Shown: piece by piece, positions 26,001-32,000 of the stretch
How positions within the stretch are numbered: the stretch's first letter is position 1
Layout: each line of letters starts with the position of its first letter
Origin: Bolinopsis microptera
Lineage: Eukaryota; Ctenophora; Tentaculata; Lobata; Bolinopsidae
DNA length: 64,000 bases
Assembly: GCF_026151205.1 (NCBI RefSeq)
Contig: NC_087082.1
Location: 13,859,365-13,923,364, forward strand
Direction of reading: 5' to 3'
Translations under genes and position numbers: made by a program
The notes under the pieces: generated by a model
Databases searched by the model: none
What the model was told of the DNA's origin: nothing
What the model saw: the letters and a program-made list of their open reading frames with translations, nothing else

Positions 26001-29000
26001 TGAGACACTGAGCAGTAGACTTGAGATCCAAAGTTCGAGGTGGAGCCTGTGCGGTCTTGCAACATGTTTGGAGGGTCCCTACTGAGATACGACTGAAAGA
26101 GATACCAAGTTTTATTACTACACTCATGGAAATAATTACTTCAATTCATCATATATTATCTTTTCATAGATTCGTAGAAACCTTTAGTTTGAATTTGGGG
26201 GCAAAGTCAGAATGCAATCACCTCAACCTGTGGGTAAGGTCGCAGTTATCTTAGTAAATAGTAAATAGTACATAAATAGTACATAAATAGAACCTCATAG
26301 ATGCAAGATGAGCAGCTTGAGTCAGCTCCTCCTCCCTGACCATCTCCCCATCCAGTACAGTCAGTCCTTTTAACCTGCCGATCACCCTGACTCTGAGTCC
26401 ATCATTCTTAATCCAGGGGTTATGTCTCATGTCCAGTGTTTGAAGAGAAGGTGTGTGCTTCCTCATCGTGTGAACCTCTTCTCGGGATATCGTCAGAAGG
26501 TTCCAACTAGCGAGTAATTTAGCGGTTAATTGGGTAATTTACTAATTGGATTATTCGTAAACCAAATCTTTGACAAAATCTACATTCAACATTCAACTAT
26601 GATGATAAAAGAGGTAACGTCCAACTGACGTAAATATTATCATAAATATTATGTTTATTTATTTTTAAACGGAGCAGAACCTTATATTAAGAGTTTTAAG
26701 ATTGGTGAGGCTCCGAAGTCCTTCAAGAGTTGTAAGACCATTAAAACTGATATCGAGGTCTTCCAGACTATCCATGTGATGAAAGTCTTCTAGACCCTCC
26801 AACTGGTTGAAACTCAGTACCAACTTCTTTAGGGTCGGGTGTGCTGACAGCTGTTTTACACTTCTTAAACCCTGAAAGTGAAAGATAAATTGAAAGTGAA
26901 AGTGAAAGTGAAAGTGAAGAAAGTGAGAGTAGCTAGGGTCCTCAAACTTATATTTGCCATGAACAAGTTTTAAAATGGAAACAAAGGTATCGAAAGTGAA
27001 TGTTACCTGATTGTGTAAGTTGATTTGCGTTACTGTTTGGAAGTGTTTGGCCGAAGATAACTTCTCTATCCCTCCAATCAACAAATTAGACTCTCTTATC
27101 TGGAAATATTAACTATAAAAGGTAGGAAAAAGCAGTGAAAGTTTTTTTAAAATATTAGATTTAGAAAATGACAGTGAAACTAAAAGTGAAACAGAAAGTA
27201 AATAACCTTTTCGAAGGTAGGAGGCATGTCGAGGACTTGTTCGTCTGTCTTGACCTCCCTGCACCACAACTCTTCTTGCATGTTATCCGAGGACTGTACT
27301 ATGGACACCTGTTGTCATGACAACTGTTATTAGTTAACTACAACTTACATTTTCTGATCAGTTTAAATCCCAACTGATGGTAAAGACAGAGCCACTGAGA
27401 AACATGATAATGAAAGTGAAAGTAAAAGTGAGACAGACCTCCTCCTTGCCGTTGTTGTAGCAGATAGAGACAGAACCACAAAGGGGTGAGGAGCGAGGGT
27501 TTGTGACATACTCGTAATCTACAAGGTACTCCGGGGTAACAAGCTCTTTCATAAACACATACCTGTATTAGTGTTAATTAGCCTGTATTAGTGTTAAATA
27601 TTAATTAGCCATGATTAGTGTTACTTAACCATGATTATAAGATTTACAACAGTTGATATAATAGTGAAAGCAGTGTTTCCATTTGGCGCTAAATATTATA
27701 CTTTTAGATATAAACTTTTAGAAAATATGTAAGACTTGTTCAATCGATTTATTTAATTATCGCTAATTAACAACTAATTGACTGTTAATCACCCACCATA
27801 TACACTGTCTCGAGCTACAATCACAAGCACCACTACCTAAGGAGAAGCTGCGTGGCAGGGCGTCTTTAGTCTTGTAAACACTATCACAGTCGGGGTAAGA
27901 GGATTTAGTGAGGGGACAGTGGGACTCTTTAGCTGCCTCACTGGGTACAGAGAGGAGTGTTACAAAGTGTTACAGTGTTACAGAGATAGTGTAACTTTAC
28001 TAATTAACTTACTAATTAATTACTTTACTAATTAACTGTATCATTTCTTATCGAAGTGGATACTTGATAAATGATTGATCGCTGAAATGACACGGGCCGG
28101 TTGATATATACTGGAATATAATATAACCTGGTACATATTTACCCTATCCAAAGACAACAGTGAGGCCCAGAAAATTAGTAACCTGTTTCCTATGTAAGTT
28201 TTACAGATAAGAATCTGGCCATGTCTGACTACCTGTTTCCTATGTAAGTTTTACAGATAAGAATCTGGTCATGTCTGACTACCTGTTTCCTATGTAAGTT
28301 TTACAGATAAGAATCTGGCCATGTCTGACTATACACGGGTCCGCACTGTCTTCATGGTCCCCCCTCTCTCGCTGCTTCTTCAGGTACTTGATTCGTGGAG
28401 CTTCAGCTAGAGACAGCGAGTTACTCAGGGATATGCAGCCGTCACTTCCAGCATCCTGGTGGGAATAGTGTGGTCACTTTCTCTTTCACTAGTTCTCTTT
28501 TACTTTATAGATAGTGTGATCAATATCACAGGTATTTTTGATCATATATCACGTAATGTCATTTTAACGTACCAGGTAATGTTCGACGTTTCTGAATCCC
28601 CGTTCCAGGATATGGTTGAGACTCCCCACTGATTCAGCTATGTTAGGATTGTGGATATAGAAGAGGTATTCTAACATTCTCTTGTAAGGTACTGACTTCC
28701 ACGTGACAATGCGCGCGTCAGAGAGTCCGTACTTTGCCAGGTCAGCTGGTGATTCACGTTCTGTGGATACGCCTCGGTGTGACTTTCACTTTCACTTTTA
28801 GACGTAATTAAAACTTGATAGAAGATGTCTAACCAAACTAAGATAATTAAAATTGAGAGTTGAAGACTTACCCAGTAGCTCGTCGAGTTTTTCCTCAAAT
28901 TGAGCGCGAAGAATGCGGTTATGGATGCGGAAGATGCGGTTTATCTTTATTCCAGTTATACCGAGATTCTTGAAGTCGGCAGAACAGAACCGTGACTGGA

Positions 29001-32000
29001 CCAGCTCAGCACACGAATTGTACCTGTAAAGAAAAGTAAAGATGAGAGAAATCAGCTGAATTTATTGCAGAACTGTGATCGAACAGACTCAGCACGAGAA
29101 AATAAGGATTAAATTAGTAAATAATATAGAATAATCGAGAACAGAACTGATACTGCCAGTAAAGCGTATCGAATAATTATATTCATATTTCAGAGTGAAA
29201 GTGAAAGAGAAACTAACCAGACGTCCCCAACCTGCCCCTCTTCAAGCCTAACATTTCCACCACACTCCAGTTCTAACATGAGTTTGCTGATTGTTCCTTC
29301 CACCTCCTTCTCTATGTAACGTCTGCAAATGTACACATAAAATGTTTGAAGTGAAATTTGGACAACTTTTTGATTCTTCGATCGTATTTTTATGCGGTTA
29401 ATGGAGAATTAATATTTAAGTTTTCAGTTATGAGATGATAATTATGATTAGGAGGCAATTACTTGGCGTTGTGGTGCCACAAGTCTACTTTAGAGATCTC
29501 TCTAATCCAATGCTCCACCCTAGCCTCTAAAGCTAGTAACTTGTCAACTATCTGACCATGCTCTTGTTCACCTGCAAAGTGAAGTGAAAGTGAAATAGGG
29601 ACCTAATAACTTGGAAACTATCTGACCATGCTCCAGTTCATCTGTCGTTATTATCTAGATTACCAATTATCGTGACAACATCACAGTTAATGCTAGTTAA
29701 AACAGTAATGCATCAGAGTTAAAACAGATGGAAAATCCCAAAGTGAAAGTGAAATAGAGACCTAATATATTGTCAACTATCTGATCATACTCCTGTTCAC
29801 CTGCAAAGTGAAAGTGAAAGTGAAATAGTTCAAACCTAATATCTTGTCAACTATCTGACCATGCTCCTGTTCACCTGCAAAATAAAAGTGAAAGTGAAAT
29901 AGGGTCGTAATAACTTGTCAGTACTATCTGACACGTTCCTGTTCACCTGCAAAATGAAAGTGAAAGTGAAATAGGGACCTAATAACTTGTCAACTATCTG
30001 ACATACTCCTGTTCACCTGCAAAATGAAATTGAAATAGGGACCTAATAATTTGTAAACTATCTGACATGCTCCTGTTCACCTGCAAAATGAAAGTGAAAG
30101 TGAAATAGGGACCTAATAATTTGTAAACTATCTGACATGCTCCTGTTCACCTGCAAAATGAAAGTGAAAGTGAAATAGGGACCTAATAACTTGTCAACTA
30201 TGTGACCATGTTCATCTGAAGTTGTAGTTACCTAGATGGCTAGATTACCAATTGCTGTATCATGACAGCATCACATCACACATGTAAAGCTATAGAGTTA
30301 AAACTGAGGAACTGGTTCGAAAAATCCAAACAGTAGTTCTGGTTCCTCTGAGTATAAGTAGGAAACATTAGAAATTGACTGCACCACAATTAAAATAAAA
30401 TCGAGCGAAGCGATAAAGTTTATCGGATAAACACAATCAAATAAAATGTAAAAGTCAAAGTCAAATTAAAAGTGAGACTGACTATTCTCGCGATTTTGAA
30501 TGGGAAACTGACTATTCTCGCGATCGTTTCTGCTCCGGTTGATGTCTCCAATACAACAGTTCATAACGTGTACCCTCTCGTAGGGCAAGGCAGCCAGCTT
30601 GTTTCGCTCTTCACACAGTCGCGCTTCCATCTCCGCGCGATTGCGCTGCAGCATCTTCACGCGCATCGTGTAGTACATCTTCTTCTTTTGGACTGTTGCC
30701 TGATGAGGACTCAAATTAATCATAACATTGATGATTGATCAACTTTGTGACTGATAGCTTATAGCTATCATATTATAACCTCAGCTTACTTCACAACTAA
30801 CCTCAGCTAACTTATCACTTAACCTCAGCTTACTTCACAACTAACCTCAGCTAACTTATCACTTAACCTCAGCTAACTTCACAACTAACCTCAGCTAACT
30901 TATCACTTAACCTCAGCTTACTTCACAACTAACCTCAGCTAACTTATCACTTAACCTCAGCTTACTTCACAACTAACCTCAGCTAACTTATCACTTAACC
31001 TCAGCTTACTTCACAACTAACCTTAGCTAACTTATCACTTAACCTCAGCTAACTTCACAACTAACCTCAGCTAACTTATCACTTAACCTCAGCTAACTTC
31101 ACAACTAACCTCAGCTAACTTATCACTTAACCTCAGCTTACTTCACAACTAACCTCAGCTAACTTATCACTTAACCTCAGCTAACTTCACAACTAACCTC
31201 AGCTAACTTCTGAAGATGACCGTTACTGATGTCAATAGTGTCAAGATGACTGAGGAAGGGGAGGTGGTAGAGAAGGTGAGTAGAGTAGTTACACAGGGAA
31301 CATACCGGGTTACTTTGGTACAGAGGGTCTTTCAACCCCACAAACCTGCAAATGTTTCAATTTTACTTTTCTGTGAGTTTTTATTCATATTCATATTTTA
31401 CACTATAGTCGTTAATGGTATGTATATACGGTTTTATTATATATGTGACTGTGTCCGGTGTCACTTTAATATGGGATCGAAATCATTAGCCAACTAACTA
31501 ACAAAGTAATTACCTTAACTTGGACAGTTCCACAAGATTAGTTAGATCTTTAAAAGAACTGAGCATGTTACCAGACAAGTTCAGACTCTCAAGGTTAGGA
31601 TGCCCCTTCAGAGAAGATCCTATCTCTGTTATCTTGTTTGAAGCTAAGTTTAGGTCAGTCAGGGACACTAGTTTGGAGATTCCCTCTATCTCTCTGATGA
31701 GATTGTTGTTCAGCCATAGGGTATTTAGGTTATATAGATTTGAAATCCCCTGTATCTTTTGTATTTGGTTGGAGTACAAATACAGTTTCCTGAGTGATTT
31801 GCACTTTTCCAATCCCTCGAGGGTCCTGATTTTACACTCACAGATCCACAGTTTCTCCAGAGACACACAAGCGGAGAGACCCTGTACTCTATCAAGAGGC
31901 AGGCTCATGATCTCCAGTTCTCTGAGTCCGGGAAAGAAGTTGTATCGAATCATTTGGCAGTGTCCGGAGAAGAAATTCTCTAGTCTGGGTACAGACCGCT

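Follow-up and report, generated by a model that had tools for sequence, protein, structure and literature searches.

In a 64,000-nt stretch of the Bolinopsis microptera genome (hereafter the window, meaning the whole of the DNA analysed), a gene resembling LRRC9 carries short tandem repeats over several of its splice junctions. We consider it likely that these arrays are minisatellites of the type called mirages in lancelets, which were duplicated locally and are tolerated by splicing.

The minus strand was read by eye and 26 exons were assembled from 32356 to 20131; the gene extends past exon 26 and the model covers exons 1-26. Precisely, the joined exons gave 1,277 codons without stops and with consistent phases, with a median exon of 128 bp, a median intron of 199 bp and an exonic share of 31% of the span. 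The introns were GT-AG in 24 of 25 cases and GC-AG in the remaining one, apparently intron 24 (AAG/GCAAGT at 21378-21379; here and below the slash marks the exon end). Leucine-rich repeats were found in the product by Pfam, and the PDB matches, among the best 60 of 123, were other leucine-rich repeat proteins, none of them named LRRC9. The gene is presumably LRRC9, a name that we take from the human sequence. Inside intron 19 there is also a plus-strand open frame of 192 codons (23855-24430), for 186 residues of which Pfam returned no family.

Junction-spanning repeats were detected by TRF and, independently, by a self-match scan (Table 1). At exon 3, whose donor reads GCTGAG/GTTAGT (last exon base 31198), TRF reported 9.9 copies of a 44-bp unit with 98% matches, of which 12 bases are exonic and the remainder lies in intron 3; the 22-bp half units alternate in the intronic part, and every half unit starts with the last 12 bases of exon 3 or with a one-base variant of them. 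The exon 4 donor, AATA/GTCAGT, occurs twice, 30 bp apart. At exon 9 (last exon base 28283) one copy is exonic and two are intronic, again with 98% matches. The duplication at the exon 11 acceptor, which enters the exon by one base, is an addition to the cases listed in an earlier note on this DNA.

Table 1. Positions in the window of the modelled gene and of the repeats considered
Feature	Position	Strand	Basis or remark
LRRC9-like gene, modelled exons 1-26	20131..32356	-	exons joined on protein similarity, splice motifs and phase
44-bp array over the exon 3 donor, in 22-bp half units	30776..31209	-	TRF and gene model
Two copies covering the exon 4 donor	30477..30524	-	gene model and self-match scan
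Array of about 70 bp in intron 4	29740..30206	-	units repeat the acceptor and the beginning of exon 5
Exon 5, from whose start the copies in intron 4 derive	29463..29571	-	gene model and alignment
Array of three 50-bp copies over the exon 9 donor	28181..28331	-	TRF and gene model
Duplication with a 20-bp period at the acceptor of exon 11	27562..27597	-	self-match scan
Sense-strand (CTTTCA)n tracts, examples	26873-26926, 27411-27431, 29194-29207, 32063-32081	-	beside acceptors and donors
G-rich array in the 3'-terminal part of the presumed acetyltransferase gene	19377..19538	+	TRF; no splice junction demonstrated

Exon 5 (first exon base 29571) is a different case. Nine copies of the segment at its start were aligned; intron 4 contains eight, and a recognisable acceptor was present in six of these eight. 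The TRF array contains no modelled junction and, judging from the alignment, this case spans a junction only via the homology of its copies to the real exon start, whereas in the repeats of exons 3, 4, 9 and 11 a modelled junction lies within. The copies near 30211 and 29635 have a differing upstream sequence, 80% alike between the two, which points to a larger duplication nested in the history of the array. The earlier note had placed four junctions of this gene (exons 3, 4, 5 and 9) in arrays whose unit includes the junction: the unit sizes hold at all four, and the exon 5 array is without a modelled junction. Its proposal that these repeats arose separately is borne out, as the units differ in size and the copies in divergence (88% matches in the intron 4 array vs 98% in the 44- and 50-bp arrays).

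The same note had counted a fifth junction in a nested acetyltransferase gene on the opposite strand, and this case had to be dropped as unproven. The open frame enters the G-rich repeat after ...KEEQEKQDT, shortly before the protein would end, and terminates within it. The sole evidence for the family was a weak PDB match to NATA1 (E 0.53), which stops with FADYK at residue 190 of 205; the submitted pieces of the presumed acetyltransferase were assigned to no Pfam family. A donor within the repeat is possible.

Tracts of the hexamer CTTTCA also lie beside the LRRC9 junctions. Considering tracts of 9 bases or more, with the big arrays masked, there were 11 on the sense strand and one on the antisense strand; eight of the 11 were at most 25 nt from a junction, vs 2.02 expected, and none of 20,000 placements reached eight. 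At other cut-offs P was 0.00015 (6 bases), 0.0002 (12) and 0.005 (14), some of the tracts being neighbours and so not independent. CTTTCA tracts at acceptors are the usual pyrimidine tracts; less expected are those directly downstream of the exon 6, 11, 12 and 13 donors. Hexamer tracts were excluded from all the locus counts given below.

Elsewhere in the window, a tRNA-like stretch at 18400-18470 has a perfect GGTTCGAATCCC box at 18452-18463 and is perhaps the head of a SINE; ARAGORN called no tRNA gene, this stretch included. A direct duplication at 55070-57962, with a spacing of 2,142 bp, carries one tandem repeat twice together with open frames that recur in identical form, and there are unbroken G runs of 33 bases (12040-12072) and 37 bases (48409-48445).

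Structures of this kind have been published. The available passages of two reports on lancelets (PMC3087553, PMC3902484) describe mirages as minisatellite-like duplications that include the exon-intron boundary, located at 5' or 3' splice sites and with extra AG/GT signals; in those of PMC3087553 the units are of 10-160 bp and RT-PCR suggests normal splicing. The genes named in these passages are Adh3 and the globins BflGb6 and BflGb9, to which PMC3902484 adds PGBD5 and TnC. As in these mirages, the repeated unit in LRRC9 includes the exon-intron boundary, at exon 5 only through homology of the copies, and the LRRC9 units, of 20-70 bp, fall inside the range given there. The LRRC9 junction repeats are, in this sense, fresh examples of already published mirage structures; they differ in that four to five junctions are concerned in one gene, known here from one sequence.

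Two other systems are similar in part. Human internal tandem repeats, as described in the accessible part of PMC2812944, are likewise minisatellites at exon-intron boundaries, with units of about 30 bp; these are located within segmental duplications and linked there to new introns, whereas LRRC9 shows no new intron. In potato, according to the accessible part of PMC4974935, an intron of RdRp was born from a boundary-crossing duplication, in line with the Rogers model of intron gain; in both that case and LRRC9 a segment that crosses an intron-exon boundary is present in tandem, but the extra copies in LRRC9 sit inside an existing intron and neither a new exon nor a new intron is seen. The Rogers route, in which AGGT tandem duplication supplies both ends of a new intron, was rejected for LRRC9: introns 3, 4 and 9 have the repeat at one end only, and the other splice site reads differently.

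We then considered what the extra splice sites would do if used. Donors and acceptors were scored with leave-one-out matrices built from LRRC9 itself (26 donors) and each outcome was translated, with one decoy donor or acceptor evaluated at a time. Between 30740 and 31215, around exon 3, 50 GT sites scored above 0 and 48 of them led to a stop; only the model site and a weak one (score 4.3), which adds four codons, stayed open. Nine further full-strength GTTAGT donors, scoring 10.0 or 11.3 vs 10.0 for the model site, all led to a stop at codon 271. At exon 5, seven acceptors scored above 6, of which the model site (11.7) was open and the six others (7.5 to 9.2) led to stops. At exon 9, six donors scored above 0. 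Four led to stops, including the distal donor with a score of 9.7 vs 4.5 for the exon-proximal model donor; a weak site adding one codon was open. At exon 4 both donor copies kept the frame open.

Since the full-strength decoys at exons 3, 5 and 9 bring stops, it is in practice essentially the exon-proximal copy that preserves the protein at three of the four junctions, and the extra copies look like tolerated passengers and not useful spares. The suggestion that duplicate sites stay functional thus fails, in the coding sense, at these three junctions. Tolerance itself fits the data, by way of the intact exon-proximal copy and not of functional duplicates.

Under the reading that we prefer, namely locally duplicated minisatellites of the mirage type, short segments of 20-70 bp that chanced to contain a splice junction would have been duplicated locally, several times independently, and some of these duplications would later have expanded via slippage or unequal exchange. 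The exon-proximal copy, presumably the one used in the cell, would retain a working splice site and the right frame, and the extra copies would lengthen the intron and be removed with it. We propose that array growth is tolerated because the exon-adjacent copy keeps a working site and the reading frame, in which case the arrays would be neutral. Two junctions may depart from this scheme: splicing may leak at exon 9, where the distal donor outscores the proximal one, and the exon 4 duplication could be exonic, the donor being weak and either copy in frame.

An alternative, which we regard as unlikely though the least so of the rival explanations, is that the sequence of the splice junction, or transcription, promotes tandem duplication, so that junction-spanning arrays would be commoner than chance. 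To evaluate chance, we considered as loci the non-hexamer repeats with a period of 10 or more, and as a null the random placement of a repeat unit. A random unit of 22-70 bp spans an LRRC9 junction with a probability of 0.09 to 0.28, or of 0.12 to 0.34 if selection removes exon-internal events; this rises when the arrays are collapsed to one copy, up to 0.54 (70 bp, exons 1-19). The second and third nulls use 13 and 10 of the 14 loci, the null for exons 1-19 leaving aside the exonic locus and the three loci that lie beyond these exons. Placement of whole arrays gave a high chance overlap, 0.20 to 0.86, and was rejected as too generous a null, since an array expands on the spot from one unit.

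Five of the 14 LRRC9 loci touch a junction vs 1.31 to 1.87 expected over the whole gene (P 0.005 to 0.02); under the three nulls the P values are 0.005, 0.023 and 0.062, all nominal, as the pattern was picked after looking. Under a strict count of four of 14, the equally nominal P values are 0.030, 0.094 and 0.20. In the same window, the plus strand has a Nup-like gene in which none of three arrays spans a junction; when these were added, with the spanning chances of LRRC9 assigned to them as an approximation, P became 0.017, 0.071 and 0.20 for five spanning loci and 0.072, 0.20 and 0.42 for four, again nominal and post hoc. A smaller first set of eight loci gave a nominal, post hoc P as low as 0.0011; it omitted six weak TRF rows of 10-13 bp, none of them junction-spanning, whose addition weakened the excess. 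The values of 0.005 for five of 14 loci and of 0.001 for the first eight, both nominal, hint at something other than neutral chance. Since the nominal P depends on the null and the pattern was chosen after looking, an excess of repeats at LRRC9 junctions is possible, under some nulls only. The earlier view that minisatellites placed at random would seldom fall on so many junctions was therefore overstated. With a median intron of 199 bp, nominal P runs from 0.005 to 0.20 for at least five spanning loci and from 0.03 to 0.42 for at least four, and what stands is a nominal excess under the stricter nulls.

Further evidence on junction-promoted duplication points both ways. Two of the Nup-like arrays (457-604 and 3736-3825) start 10 and 11 nt past a donor, with the donor excluded, which speaks for it, as do the junction repeats reported repeatedly in several lancelet genes in the available passages of PMC3087553 and PMC3902484; the third Nup-like array (2539-2604) starts 37 nt past a donor. 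Against it, the ends of the 50-bp unit have, by eye, at most one base in common with the flanks, and no shared break motif was seen.

Far less probable is a poison splice ladder, in which added copies divert splicing to early-stop transcripts and the copy number tunes LRRC9 output. The nine equal-strength decoys that follow the exon 3 donor and the stop-bearing distal donor of exon 9 would suit such a ladder; however, it rests on leave-one-out scores from the 26 donors of LRRC9 itself, and the published mirages, in the available passages of PMC3087553 and PMC3902484, leave splicing undisturbed. Just as improbable, in our judgement, is the combined view that the junctions of this lineage are hotspots of tandem duplication, with array length acting as a fast-mutating dial on productive LRRC9 splicing through equal-strength, stop-bearing decoys. 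An assembly artefact is the least credible of all: the identity of the copies is high and the accessible part of PMC3087553 records a mirage wrongly assembled in a draft genome, but every LRRC9 array is shorter than 500 bp and fits one long read, the copies of the 70-bp array are too diverged for collapse or stutter, and there are several independent repeat units.

Mirages have been reported from a handful of lancelet genes, and LRRC9 alone has four to five. As its decoys are all readable, the gene offers a compact system in which to examine how one of many equal donors is chosen by the spliceosome, and also whether splice junctions attract tandem duplication.
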